Assembly (NCBI GenBank): GCA_017506865.1
Contig: JAFCMP010000390.1
Location: 186,001-250,000, forward strand
DNA length: 64,000 bases
Reading direction: 5' to 3'
From: Tribonema minus
Taxonomy: Eukaryota > Sar > Xanthophyceae > Tribonematales > Tribonemataceae
The position numbers and the translations under genes are program-made. Under the pieces are notes generated by a model. That model was not told the origin of the DNA. It made no database searches and saw nothing but the letters and a program-made list of their open reading frames with translations. Shown one piece after another: positions 35,703-51,050 of the stretch (within the stretch, counting starts at the first letter, position 1; every line of letters begins with the position of its first letter).

Positions 35703-36679
35703 TGTTTGATGCTGTGATGTCGTCCTGGGGCTCTCTATATGTAGCAAATCGAAGCAGCAGCACAGCCCAAAGAGCAGCAGCATCAGCTCAATGATTCAGG
35801 CAATGGTTGAAGGATTGGTGTTGATGCATGGAAAATGCACATACACTCAATTGGAGCAATTTTGACAATGCCTGTGCATTGAAAGATTTGAGACGGTGTC
35901 TAAGATGCATGGTATGTAAAGCCAGCATGAATTAGGTCAAGGCCAAAAGCGCTTCGAGGACGTGAGCTTTTCTGGCAACAATGCTTCTCAAGAGGGACAT
36001 TGATTTACTGCATCTGTGTGGAAGAATCCCCGGCAAGTCAACTTTGCTTAATGATTGCTGTCGCGAAGGCACCATGTCAGTCTGGACGCGCTAATCATTA
36101 TGGCGCTTGGGAGATTGCAGGTTCATCTGTTTCAACTGCTTTCAAGCTCTGCACTGATTACCTGATTTATTGCTGCTCCAGAGTGTCGTACTCAGAGAAG
36201 ATGACCAGGTAGCGTCACAGGAGGGAGCGAGTGTCGGCGGTTCACAAACAGAGCAGTTGCACGTGTCGATCCTTCGTTAACACGTGGCATACTTCGTGCA
36301 CGCTCACGTCGGAACCCGGGTTTTTCAAACATTTGAAAACCCGGTTTGTGGGAGTTCTTCTTCTCTTTTTTATTCATGATCGAAGCGCTGAGGGAGCTAG
36401 GCACGCACCTCCTCCGCTGTGATGTGATAGCGACCAAGCGGACATTGACGCACGCCGGCACCTTGTGCAGTCCACGCTCGGGCATCAGCGCTCGCCTGCA
36501 CCGCGCCAGGTCGCGGTTCAACCTTCGCCCTGTTGTCCTACGCGCAGCTGTGTTCCAACTTCCTCAGCTGCGGAGCCGATCTCAGCGCAGTCCTGAAAGC
36601 TGGCGCCACAACAGCTGCAGTTGGTGCTCGATCGCTTGTGTAAGCTCCGTTGCGGACTGTTGGCACTGCAGCGAATATC
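35703..36679. other. Intergenic region between divergent SDF2 and the bactofilin-like gene
   Basis: About 980 bp of comparatively AT-rich DNA. It contains a near-perfect hairpin at 36316-36350, where AACCCGGGTTTTTCAAA faces TTTGAAAACCCGGTTTG. No ORF here looks coding; promoters of both flanking genes are expected. Confidence 0.5.
36316..36350. repeat. Short palindrome/hairpin upstream of the bactofilin-like gene
   Basis: The arms AACCCGGGTTTTTCAAA and TTTGAAAACCCGGTTTG are complementary over about 16 bp with a 2-3 nt loop. It could be an operator-like site or an RNA hairpin. No function can be read from the sequence. Confidence 0.6.
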
Positions 36680-38262
36680 ATGAAGGGAGGTCATCATGAA
36701 GCCGCCAACTCCGCCGGCAGCGACAGCTTTCCTCGATCGCGTCGCATCTCCAGCATTGCTCCCCACACCTTGGCGGTGGGAAAGCATGTCAAATTCTCCG
36801 GGCACGCAATGGACTGCGACCGCGCATTGATCCGTGAGTGCTTCTTGACTTTGCTCGATCAGTGACATTCCCTCCTGAGCGCGCGGTGTGGTGTGACATG
36901 GTGACATGTGTCAACATATGCTTGCGGAAAATTGCTTTTCAATATGTTTGACCAACCTTTGTGTTTGCTTATGAGCTTTGCGTTCGGGCTGATTGAAATT
37001 GCTGCCTGGCCATGCAGCAACTACGCCCTTGTTCAAGTTGACGCATGCTTTGTCTGCTGAGCTCACACTGGGTGGGGGGGGCTGCAATTGCGTCACGCTG
37101 CAGCATGTTTGCCATCAGGTCTCCTTTGTCTTGCATCTATGAGCAGCATCACAGCAATTTGACCCCCGCCCCCCCCCCCCTCCCCGCTCCCCACAGATGG
37201 CACCTTCCACGGCTACCTGGAGGCATCAGCTGTGTGCGTCCGGCGGGGGGGTGTACTCGAATGCGATGGCACAGTGGACGCTCTGGAGGTTGGCGGCACG
37301 GCCACTGGCGCTGGCCTTGCAGCAGATTTGCTGGTAGTAAGAAAAACCGGCTCTGTCGGCGGAGAGCTGCGCTATGGGCAGCTGGCTTCCGAGCAGGGCG
37401 CGCACGTAGACACGCTCACCGTGCAGCAGATCGACAGCGACTTTGCCGCTGCATGGGACAGCGAGCCCAGCGCGTGCAACGACGCGCACGACGAGGTGCA
37501 GCGTTTCCTGGACTACCGGGAAGACCTAGTCGCCAAGCAGCAGCAGGCGGCGCCGCAGCCACCGCCGGGTGAGGTGAAGCCTGAGAACGGCAGCAGCTGC
37601 GGCAGCAGCACACAGGAGGAGGAGGACAGCGAGGACGAGGAGGAGAGCAGCTCGTCGGAGTCTTCAGAAGAAGACGATGAAGTTGACGATGACTATGACT
37701 TCGATGAGGACGCGACCAACTCGTACGGGCAGCGCCCCAACCACGGCGACGGCATGAGCCTCAGCACTATAGACGAGGAGCCGGAGATGCTCAGCCCCTC
37801 GTGGCTGAGCTCAGAGGCGCGGAGCCACCGCGGCGCAGACGGCGGCTTTGCCCATAACCCGGCGCTGCACGAGAAGACGACTGCGATTTCGGCGCCTGCC
37901 TCGCTCTTCGGCAGCGCGCGCGAGAAGACCATCATCGCGCTGAGCGCGCAGAACAGCGATGCGCTGCTGGCGACACCAAGCCGCGCCGTAGTCACTGCCG
38001 CCACGGCGTCGTCGCCAGAGGTGGAGCGGGACAGCCGGTCGTACTCCGAGCCGCTGCCATCTGCCCTGTCTCTGGAGCGGCCGCGGGGTGTGCGGCAGTC
38101 GCCGCCGCCGTTGCAGGCGCCAGCGAACGTGCCACAGTCACCGCCTGCACAGTCGCCGCCACCGCCGCCGCAGCAGCCAATGCAGGCCCTGGAGCAGCGC
38201 CTGCAGGAGCAGGCCAATCAGCAGCAGCAGCAGATGGCGGAAAAGCAGCAGCAGCAGCAGCC

Positions 38263-38297
<35 letters not shown>

Positions 38298-40403
38298 AAC
38301 CAACAGTGGTGCCAGAGCAGCACCATCATGCAGCGGAAGCGCGGCTGCCGCGCCGCGCGCCGCAGCACGGCAGCGACAGCGCCGCGCCGTGGTCCGAGCC
38401 GCCAGAGCTGCAGCTGCCGCCGTCGCTGCCGCACGTTTCAGCGCCCGCCGCGCCCGCAGCTGACGCCGCCCTGATCGAAACGTTGGAGCTGCCGCTGACG
38501 GGCGCAGCCGGCATCGACGTGGCGGCTGTCATCGGCACGGGGGGGCTGAGGGACGTCGTGACGCTCGCGGCGCAGCTGCGCGAGGCAGCGCTCGGCGTGG
38601 CGGCGTCCGGCGGCGACCCGAAGCTGTCGGAGGCGCTCGTGGCGGCGGTGGTGGTGCTGGAGGCGCGGCAGCGGCACCGCCTGGACGCCAAAGCGGGCGC
38701 CGTGTGCGCCGCAGACCTCGCGCGCCTTAACGCCAAGTTCAAGGTGAGGTTTGCCTGCCTGGTGACGCCGCCGTGATGAGCGGGCTAGTACAGTGCCGCG
38801 CCGCGCGTTTGCCATGTTTGACCTTCCGCTGCGCGGCTCTCTGTTGGGGTAGTGTTGAAAGTTTGCCAGTCGTGACGGTGGTGTCGTCGCGTAGGTCACG
38901 CGTGCGCGCTGCGTCGCTGTATCTGATGCTGTGCCCTTCAGGCTGAAGACGACAAGGCGGCGGCGCTTGCAAAGACAAGGTACATGGGCCTTACGGCGTC
39001 GAAGGTGGAGGACGCGCCGCGCTCCGTGCAGCTCAAGAGTGTCAACAAGGTCAGGGCATTTGGCATTATTCGGCTTACAAAGGCGCCGCTTGCGTATCAC
39101 TGCTTCAATTGCACACAACCTTGCAAGAGACCCCCCTGCCTCTGGTGTGACGGAGGCTTAGCCCTCAAATCCAAGTTTATGATGCACTCGGCAGCCTCAA
39201 TCTTGGGCTTGCTGGTAGCCACTGGTCAATTGGCACATGGTTGTTTAGGCCGTAGTCTGTGTTCAGGTTCCTTTGTTCTACAGCCTGCACTTGTCAGTCT
39301 CACCATGCCCTGCTGCCTTCTCACTTCAATGACTGCACTCTGCAACTGCTGACAATGCCGGCGCCTTACTGCATGCAACACATGAGCGCTGCTGCACACC
39401 GCGCACACCGTGCTGTCTCTCCCGCAACTGAGCACACGTCATGACACTGCTCAGGATCGGCGGCGCTGCTCACATAGGCTCCGCTTGCCGCACCAGACCG
39501 CTAGCATCAAGCCTCTACCCCGCAATAACCTCTCACGCGCGCTGCTCCGCTGTTCGCTGCCGCGCCAGGCGATCTGGTTCCTGGGCCCGGAGGCACCAGC
39601 GATGGCGCTGCTGCTGCCGCGCTCCAGGAGCGACTCCGACCTGGACCTCACTGCCGCCAAAGCGGCGGCCGCAGCGCAGGGGCCGCCGGCCTGCGACGAG
39701 GAGCGGCGGCGGTCGCTCAGCGAGCCTGCAGGACCCGCCGGTGCGTGCGCCGCGCGCTTTACGTATGTGTTGTTGCAGTGGAATCCATGCGCGGCTGCAT
39801 TGTGATGTGATTGGGCAGCGGTGCGGCAGGTGTTGCACTCATGGATAGGTTTGGCGGCAGTTGAGGGCGCCTATTGCTTGACCCTCTCACGTCTATGGTG
39901 ACGTCCCAGCTGGAGTGCCTGCGCCAGCAACGACACAGACAAGAACGCCTCTGTTTTCCATGCGATGCGTGCCTGGCGAATTGCGCGGCGTGCACATGCA
40001 TCGCTTGGCTGCGTGACATTCATGTTGCAGTGCGCGCCTGCAGCGTTCCAGTAGTGCCTGCAAGATATACTCTTGTGGTGCTCTCTCTGGCGTACAAAGC
40101 AGTGCGACATCCTGCACAACACGCTCACGATCCTGCACAACACACTCGCGCCTGCCTGCGCTGCCTCAGCTCATCATGCCCCCCCCCCCCCCCCCCCCCT
40201 ACACGTCCTTCTTCACAGGCGCTGACGAGCTCGCAGAGGCAACCGTCGAGAGCCTGCAGGCGCCCGCCGCGGTGCAGCTCAAGCCAAAGGCGAGCCTGAT
40301 CAGGGCGCTGGGCGCCAGCGTGCGCAAGTGGGCGCCCGTCGGCATCAAGCTACAGGCCGGCAGCGGCGCGAAGGGCGCCGTGGCCAGCGCTGGCGGCATG
40401 TAG
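36680..40403 (+). CDS. Bactofilin-like (polymer-forming domain) protein with long disordered tail, 5 exons
   Basis: The spliced product is 721 aa. Residues about 30-128 show the bactofilin beta-helix pattern, with short strands every six or so residues and recurrent Gly: VGKHVKFSG, GTFHGYLEA, VCVRRGGVLECDGTVDAL, GSVGGELRYGQLASEQGA. Bactofilins are bacterial cytoskeletal polymers; some eukaryotic members are reported. The rest is low complexity: an acidic Ser/Glu/Asp stretch, Pro-rich segments, a Gln tract (38221-38293) and a basic C-terminus (KASLIRALGASVRKW). Exons: 36680-36833, 37197-38743, 38942-39049, 39569-39740, 40219-40403, GT-AG, phases consistent. ATG 36680 is the first in frame upstream of the domain. 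A direct cytoskeletal role is inference; any right-handed beta-helix scaffold is the alternative. Confidence 0.82.
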
Positions 40404-48994: not shown

Positions 48995-50485
48995 CTACAG
49001 CAGCGTCGTCGGCGCTGGGCTCATGCTGATGGCGAAGAAGCGCGGGCGCATGATGTCGTCGCGCACGAGCGACACGCTGAGCACGCCGCCGGGCCGCCCG
49101 TCGCGCACCTTGCACGGCAGGTCGACGTGCTGCGGCGGCGCGCCGGCGGCGGCGGGCGCGCTGAGCGCGCCGCTGATGAGCGCGAACGACCGCTGCAGGT
49201 ACGCGTCCGCGACGAGGTTGAAGACGGTGAGCAGCAGCAGCTCGTCGCGGCGGAAGCCCGTCGCGACGCACATGCGCGAGTTGCACTCCACGATGTTGCC
49301 GTTGATGGAGCACACCGCCAGCGGTATCGCGGCGTTGTGGAAGATGAGCTGGTAGTCCATGCCGACGGACGCCGCCGCCGCCGACGCCGCCGCCGCTGCC
49401 GCCGTCGCGGCCGCGGTCGCCTTCTCCTGCGCCGCCGCCGCCGCCGCCTGCTGCATCTGCGCCTGAGAGTCAGCGCCGCCGCCACCGCCGCCGCCGCGCG
49501 CGCCGCCCTGCGTGTTGCCGCCGGCCGACAGCATCTGCACGAGGCCGAGCATGTGCGCGCGCTCCGCCTCCAGCGCCCCCTGCTGCCGCAGAAGCAGCTT
49601 GATGAGGTTGGTGCCCTCCTGCAGCACATGGGACTTGCTGTTCTTGACTGAGATGCCGCTCTGCCGCAGCAGCAGCCTCAGCTCGTCGATCCTCTGAGAG
49701 ATCTTGAGAGACCGCTTCTGCTCCCGCGCGTTCCTCTCCAGCCGCCGCTTGTCGACCGGTCTGCCCCCTACCCCTCCCCTCGGGCTGGTACAAGGCAAGT
49801 GCGCCATGTCCTTGAAGCCCCGCAAATCGTCCAGCCCATGCAGGCCCCCATGGTGGGGGCCAAGGCTGCCGCTGCCGCGTGACAGCCTGGGCGCACGCTC
49901 CCACCCCGCCCCGTCCGAAGGGAGGCCGACCTTAGCGTCCGCTGCGGCCTTGCCGGCGGCCTGGAATGCTTGCTCTGCTTCAAGCGCCTCCCTCGCCCGC
50001 CTCAGTTGTTCCCCCTCCACCTCTTTGGCCTCAGGCTTGACTATATCCCTGACCACCTTGGGCTGCGGTACGAGATGCTCTCGCTCACGACTTCGCCCGC
50101 CCCCTTTGCCGCTCGCCACCTCCGACAGCGGCGAAGGGGATGAGGACGCTGTCGTGGTTGCGCCCAGGCCCCCTCCTGAACGCGTGGCGGAATTTGTGGT
50201 GGCCTCCTCGTCCGTGTCATCGAGGTAATCGTTGTCGTCCGTGCAGTCGTCGTCCAGGCCCTGAATAGCGTCCATGCACTGCGAGTCGAGCTCATCCTGA
50301 ACCATGCCATAGGCATCTATGTTTTCGAATGTGAAGGGCAACCACTCTGTGGGATTATCGAGCGAGCCCGGCGCCTCGCCGATGCTGCTGTTCGCTCGCC
50401 CGCCCCCAGCATGCTGCTGTGCATCGTCCATCTGGCCTTGCCCTCCGTCCCTGCCTACTAATCTGCTTGCGCCTGCAAAGCTCAT
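48995..50485 (-). CDS. bHLH-PAS transcription regulator, single exon
   Basis: The product is 496 aa in one exon, unlike the intron-rich neighbours. Residues 1-110 are acidic and Gln/Ser-rich, a possible activation region. A basic helix-loop-helix lies at about 245-302: basic KRRLERNAREQKRSLKIS, helix 1 RIDELRLLLRQ, loop, helix 2 SHVLQEGTNLIKLLLRQQ, continuing as a coiled helix. After Gly and Ala tracts comes one PAS domain (about 376-490): MDYQLIFHNAAIPLAVCSI, GNIVECNSRMC, ATGFRRDELL. bHLH followed by a single PAS resembles the RITMO-type circadian regulators of diatoms and relatives (family-level inference). ATG 50485 is the first in frame; the upstream open frame has no ATG. Its promoter and first 35 codons are duplicated in inverse orientation at 52.2-52.9 kb. 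Confidence 0.9.
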   Translation of the reverse strand: MSFAGASRLVGRDGGQGQMDDAQQHAGGGRANSSIGEAPGSLDNPTEWLPFTFENIDAYGMVQDELDSQCMDAIQGLDDDCTDDNDYLDDTDEEATTNSATRSGGGLGATTTASSSPSPLSEVASGKGGGRSREREHLVPQPKVVRDIVKPEAKEVEGEQLRRAREALEAEQAFQAAGKAAADAKVGLPSDGAGWERAPRLSRGSGSLGPHHGGLHGLDDLRGFKDMAHLPCTSPRGGVGGRPVDKRRLERNAREQKRSLKISQRIDELRLLLRQSGISVKNSKSHVLQEGTNLIKLLLRQQGALEAERAHMLGLVQMLSAGGNTQGGARGGGGGGGADSQAQMQQAAAAAAQEKATAAATAAAAAASAAAASVGMDYQLIFHNAAIPLAVCSINGNIVECNSRMCVATGFRRDELLLLTVFNLVADAYLQRSFALISGALSAPAAAGAPPQHVDLPCKVRDGRPGGVLSVSLVRDDIMRPRFFAISMSPAPTTLL

Positions 50486-51050
50486 GCTTGCCTCTTGGTT
50501 TAGCGGCGGCTGAATGTGAAGTCCCCCCTGTGTGGTAGTCTCTCTGTCCGGTATGCTGTGTGAGCAGCGCTGCGTGTGCCGTGCCCGTCTCCCGCAATCA
50601 ATCGCTTGCACGCCTTTGTGTCTGCGTAGGCTCGTATGTGTTGCAATGGCAAACTGCGCATCAGACTGACGAAAGGAAGGGAATAGACCATGACATCATC
50701 CTTCGTGGCTTTTCGTGCCAGAGTCTGGAAGGATGTGTCACACATGTAGTATGTATGTATGGAGTGGAGAGGGGGGGGTACATTTTTTGATTTGGGCCGT
50801 GCGGTTGTGCAAACAGTTACCTTGGAGGTGACCTGATGATCAGCATAGCATAGAATAACAGCTCGTGATAGTGCTGTGCGCCTCTGGCGGGTTTACACAT
50901 GAGGGCTCATTGACGAGACGAAGTTTCCGGTTGACACATACTGAAGAAGCACTGCAACCATGTGCATGAGCTGATTTGGGCCCTCAGCAAGAATGCTGCA
51001 AACACTACACGTGTAGGCATGCGCGAGTGCAGTCGCATACGCACTGTGAG
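50381..51050 (-). repeat. Left arm of a recent inverted duplication (bHLH-PAS 5' region)
   Basis: This segment covers codons 1-35 of the bHLH-PAS gene, its 5' leader and about 560 bp upstream. Its reverse complement recurs at 52204-52872 with roughly 97% identity by eye. Differences include a 6-bp insertion near 52438, a shorter G run and three changed residues in the translated part. The spacer is about 1.15 kb. Confidence 0.93.

Follow-up and report, generated by a model that had tools for sequence, protein, structure and literature searches.

A predicted long-tailed bactofilin with introns, one of a gene family in the alga Tribonema minus

Results and Discussion

We analyzed a stretch of 64,000 nucleotides of Tribonema minus DNA (contig JAFCMP010000390.1, positions 186,001 to 250,000, forward strand), which we call the window. 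It carries a predicted gene whose protein begins with a bactofilin domain and ends in a long tail. Papers are cited by their PMC numbers. The model, with splice junctions read from the sequence alone, gives a protein of 721 amino acids in five exons, and all four introns (363, 198, 519, and 478 bases) have GT-AG borders. The ATG at 36680 is the first in frame after an in-frame stop at 36641, and the stop codon ends at 40403; an earlier note on this DNA had given the span 36680..40403, which is exact to the base. In 2000 single-letter shuffles the longest open stretch reached at most 426 codons (median 172), fewer than the 515 codons of exon 2. The guanine-plus-cytosine content (GC) at third codon positions is 0.69-0.90 in the exons, and introns have a total GC of 0.53-0.63. 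The note had also described a nuclear gene with its domain split by an intron. Intron 1 does cut the domain, after residue 51, and a nuclear location is supported by the introns, the 961-kb contig, and the plastid-DNA fragments elsewhere in the assembly.

The Pfam family Bactofilin (PF04519) matches the whole predicted protein with an E value of 3.9e-10 and 40.3 bits (curated cut-off 27.9), covering profile positions 3-94 of 98. The N-terminal 138 residues, taken as a fragment, score 44.6 bits (E 1.7e-11). It is the sole Pfam family listed at E <= 1. Bactofilins were the only families matched by sequence profile in Pfam and the PDB, and no better match to another family emerged. The predicted model of residues 53-139 is a beta-helix, which superposes on the solved bactofilins 6rib, 2n3d, and 6ria; its right-handedness is judged from that superposition. 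Bactofilins head the list of structure matches by about 2-3 Z units. We assign the predicted protein to the bactofilin family, and the bactofilin-like N-terminal domain of about 100 residues that the note had proposed is retained with the bounds in Table 1. It is highly improbable that the domain belongs to a different beta-helix family (an adhesin, an ice-binding protein, or a cyclase-associated-protein-like fold) and merely resembles a bactofilin; the profiles and the order of the structure list have largely refuted this already.

Table 1. Predicted features of the bactofilin gene, in window positions.
Feature	Position	Strand	Basis
Exon 1: 28 N-terminal residues and first bactofilin turns	36680..36833	+	Gene model; located again when the genome was searched with the protein, at C390:222752-222862
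Bactofilin domain, residues 29-126 (33-123 matched by Pfam), split by intron 1	36764..37420	+	PF04519; predicted beta-helix of exon-2 part; structure match to 6rib, 2n3d, 6ria
Intron 1, GT-AG, 363 bases, cuts the domain after residue 51	36834..37196	+	Gene model
Exon 2: remaining bactofilin domain and acidic, Pro/Gln-rich, helical parts	37197..38743	+	Gene model; shuffle test
Acidic Ser/Asp/Glu stretch, residues 190-227	37610..37723	+	Sequence
Conserved tail segment, residues 238-269, contains LSTIDEEPEMLSPSW	37754..37849	+	56% identity over 32 residues with a separate open frame of C66
Gln-rich stretch, residues 386-420	38198..38302	+	Sequence
Putative helical region, residues 472-567	38456..38743	+	AlphaFold2, single sequence, mean predicted local distance difference test 70.3, four helices: weak
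Exon 3	38942..39049	+	Gene model
Exon 4	39569..39740	+	Gene model
Exon 5, including stop codon	40219..40403	+	Gene model

The window gene has paralogues in the same genome. A PF04519 search of the assembly (158 Mb, 554 contigs) gave ten places above the cut-off. With a duplicate (C489) and a repetitive place (C93) removed and two exons of C530 joined, seven loci are left: C390 (the window gene), C66, C70, C24, C542, C72, and C530. The six besides the window gene score 39-76 bits as proteins. An eighth, C157, scores 24.4 bits, under the cut-off; three exons with GT-AG borders carry its domain, and by eye it resembles C72 and C530. The family thus has at least eight loci, all on contigs between 341 kb and 1.57 Mb long, and introns are also predicted in C530 (read by eye) and C157. 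A genome search with the window domain itself found C66 (E 1.5e-21, 39% identity), C24, C70, and C542 (5.4e-4); C72, C530, and C157 were unmatched.

Several other places were set aside. C93 reached 28.6 bits in the genome search; its protein excerpt, which shows a repetitive STAG pattern, scored 25.3 bits. C489 is an 11.8-kb contig that repeats a stretch of C70 (99.9% identical over 6,866 bases), by assembly redundancy or as a second allele. C223, C445, and C112 (19.8-24.2 bits in the genome search) were unmatched by the seed profile, and C514 (16.5 bits) stands outside the locus count. Two weak bactofilin-like matches, C112:1074575-1078150 and C445:1424234-1425076 (19.8-20.1 bits, likewise missed by the seed profile), each lie inside a very long frame, of 3544 and 1269 amino acids.

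We calculated a tree over 101 columns, with seven proteins of the host and 71 domains from bacteria. The bacterial domains are what remained of 81 matches once those weaker than E 1e-15, those with fewer than 90 profile columns, and identical ones had been removed; the sample leans to Myxococcota and spirochaete genomes, with 20 of 35 places fetched. The host proteins form two separate groups, one of the window protein, C66, C70, C24, and C542 (100/94) and one of C72 and C530 (100/99). The groups are credible. Their attachment is not, because of the 101 columns, the long branches, and an unlike letter make-up. A bacterial origin of the family, which the note had raised as a possibility, is plausible; the long-tailed host clade is set apart from the 71 sampled bacterial domains, and no donor can be named.

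Bactofilins are mainly bacterial proteins and have been reported in Imitervirales giant viruses (2025 paper, PMC12192438), so one might suspect a recent contaminant or insertion from a bacterium or virus instead of a resident gene family. The introns, the long contigs, and the separation of the host clade from the sampled bacteria make this very unlikely. No confirmed relative came out of scans of viral contigs, and the BFVD search gave nothing at E < 0.001; both are weak tests, the scans because they depend on matches to short peptides. A phage search found no relative. A plasmid search with the C542 protein returned only 7 records, all from E. coli, with a bactofilin that is 23.9% identical. 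In bacteria the bactofilin gene often stands beside an M23 peptidase gene (PMC10945521); no peptidase was found among the 10 of 31 window open frames of at least 220 amino acids that were examined.

The predicted tail comprises 595 amino acids from residue 127, in line with the roughly 590 of the note, and it contains acidic, poly-Gln, and Pro-rich parts as described there. It appears largely flexible, except that residues 472-567 look helical in a weak prediction. The window protein and C66 share a motif, LSTIDEEPEMLSPSW and LHTIEEEPEILSPSW; the C66 copy lies in a later open frame (56% identity over 32 residues). Against the whole genome, the conserved tail segment matched only C66, besides the window itself, below E 0.4, and the next match had an E value of 0.43. 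C70 (861 amino acids) and C24 (676), read by open frame with the end of C24 provisional, have huge tails rich in Gly, Ala, Pro, and Ser. Near their C-termini the two share a different motif, TGTIADFYG...FSFTNVFS (E 2.6e-8; the segment includes Gly runs). Such conserved islands amid unalignable tails have the look of short binding motifs, and the tail motifs may bind partners.

C542 (124 amino acids) and C72 (150) are short by open frame. A Cys residue (C46 in the window protein) is common to the window protein, C66, C70, C24, and C542 and is absent from C72 and C530. C542, which groups with the long-tailed clade and has its Cys, is perhaps a tail-less ancestor type.

Residues V37, A43, V66, and V122 of the window protein align with L46, V52, V75, and F130 of BacA. 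At these four polymer-interface positions every one of the seven host proteins (C157 left out) has V, I, L, or A, with Ala at two V52 positions. The mutation F130R abolishes polymerization of BacA (PMC12448750), and V75 is said not to be directly at the interface (PMC12364344). The residue at the F130 position is F in 32 of the 71 bacterial domains, V in 16, L in 10, I in 6, H in 4, and M in 3; V, L, or I (32/71) is as frequent there as Phe (32/71). Hydrophobic residues at the interface would allow the predicted window domain to polymerize.

The explanation we consider the most probable, if by no means certain, is a eukaryotic bactofilin in which a filament core carries long, flexible recruiting tails, within a host-specific multigene branch. 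The N-terminal right-handed beta-helix would join end to end into a non-polar filament, with no need of a nucleotide. The tail of each subunit, about 595 residues and largely flexible, would stand off the filament and recruit partners via short motifs such as LSTIDEEPEMLSPSW. As the branch is host-specific and the family has at least eight genes, the paralogues, alike in core and unlike in tail, probably serve different sites in the cell. The protein may be a cytoplasmic scaffold. This reading draws on a bacterial parallel, BacA of Asticcacaulis biprosthecum, which likewise has a core between disordered Pro-rich ends (PMC12364344). Without its C-terminal disordered end the contact with SpmX is lost, and its polymerization requires the end faces (PMC12364344). 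That C-terminal end has 41 residues (141-181), compared with 595 in the window protein.

Several points weigh against this explanation. The predicted model lacks the turns of exon 1, and its input alignment included bacterial bactofilins. Foldseek gave nothing at E < 0.001, although its top three matches were bactofilins, and phmmer with the single window domain found no match in the PDB. None of the seven host proteins has Phe at the F130 position, where five have V and two have L. On the scale of the genome the tail-motif match to C66 is modest (E 0.0023). A huge tail might hinder the bundling of filaments. The start of the window protein, MKGGHHEAANSAGSDSF, shows by eye no obvious hydrophobic-cationic membrane-targeting peptide, a feature of many but not all bactofilins.

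The runner-up is a fold kept without polymerization, in which the beta-helix, as a monomer or dimer, would act as an adaptor and leave the work to the disordered tail, for example in the nucleus or in forming condensates. The acidic, Gln-rich tail and the Val that replaces Phe at the C-terminal interface fit such an adaptor, as does the window protein having, with C66 (39.2 bits), the lowest PF04519 scores among the seven proteins (the other five reach 52.8-75.7). The adaptor is rather unlikely in our judgment, given that all seven host proteins have V, I, L, or A at the four interface positions and that V, L, or I is common at the F130 position in bacteria. Less likely still is a membrane-linked scaffold, in which the window protein would co-assemble with the short paralogue C72 as carrier of a membrane anchor. 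The start of C72, MFRRSS, resembles by eye the BacA membrane peptide MFSKQAKS (PMC12448750), and the title of PMC10259793 mentions interacting bactofilins in one bacterium; C72, however, falls in the other host group of the tree, and its predicted start codon is provisional.

The closest known systems are bactofilins of bacteria, of stramenopiles, and of giant viruses. BacA of Caulobacter crescentus (2n3d) is a 184-residue chain with the membrane peptide (PMC12448750), whereas the window protein has its 595-residue tail, introns, and Val for F130. TtBac of Thermus thermophilus (6ria, 6rib) is a chain of 123 residues and, unlike the window protein, has no long tail. Deng et al. (2019) described bactofilins from stramenopiles, reportedly with oomycetes among them. 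These examples, as cited in PMC9448923, are eukaryotic and of the same family as the window protein. The bactofilins of Imitervirales (PMC12192438) are likewise tied to eukaryotes, in their viruses; the collections searched yielded no sequence of this kind.

The introduction of a 2025 paper counts bactofilin among the polymer-forming proteins "typically absent from eukaryotes" (PMC12448750), and others acknowledge a few eukaryotic cases (e.g. PMC9448923). A eukaryotic bactofilin as such is already known. As stramenopile examples are in print, the find is less unusual than the earlier note held; the window gene is also a member of a family of eight genes or more. We found no report of a long-tailed multigene algal bactofilin in the literature searched, whose coverage leaves most subscription journals outside.

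Two further features were observed. A frame of 566 amino acids in the window (48998-50695, minus strand) matches helix-loop-helix (28.3 bits) and PAS (25.9 bits), both above the Pfam cut-offs, and may encode a regulator of the basic helix-loop-helix-PAS type. This arrangement is known from animals and a diatom clock protein. In addition, 11 scattered psaA/psaB fragments and one psaD fragment lie in nuclear contigs, with stops inside or beside them, as nuclear plastid DNA; the psaD fragment, also with stops, has a local GC of 0.36. The fragments span 42-46 residues. Best matches are 9m4f and 9ygv, with 95.1 and 94.6 bits for psaA and 84.1 and 84.9 bits for psaB. For psaA, 8ZEH (87.6), 7Y7B (81.4), 6ijj (80.0), and 9JJ8 (79.1) follow. 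As 6ijj, which we take to be Chlamydomonas, lies near the other scores, this fragment separates deeper groups poorly. The psaB fragment discriminates little: 4kt0 and its neighbors, presumably cyanobacterial, come after 9ygv and 9m4f. The psaD fragment matches 9vfj (143.9 bits, summed over three stretches), 9m4f (85.3), 8zeh (79.3), and 9ygv (67.7); in algae of the red lineage psaD is a plastid gene, and green algae carry it in the nucleus. Entry 9YGV is from giant kelp, 8ZEH from a diatom, 7Y7B from a cryptophyte, and 9JJ8 from a haptophyte (PMC13219633). Together these short fragments point to a likely red-lineage plastid and to a probable ochrophyte host on the side of the brown algae; the psaD fragment and the psaA ranking tell against a green alga. 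A search for four TTTTAGGG repeats, as a telomere pattern, gave no match.

Conclusion

At least eight nuclear genes of one family, with introns and with tail motifs that are conserved, would mean that one lineage has bactofilin and has elaborated it. In the widest form of this idea, which we put forward tentatively, a bacterial-type filament would have been turned into a eukaryotic multigene scaffold: in several bactofilins, tails of about 570-760 residues that differ from paralogue to paralogue would make the filaments brush-like, and a short tail motif would direct each to a site of its own, alongside actin and tubulin. The clade would be a eukaryotic invention, not a recent transfer. The family makes a question testable, namely whether a eukaryote runs a nucleotide-free filament beside actin and tubulin, and what for.
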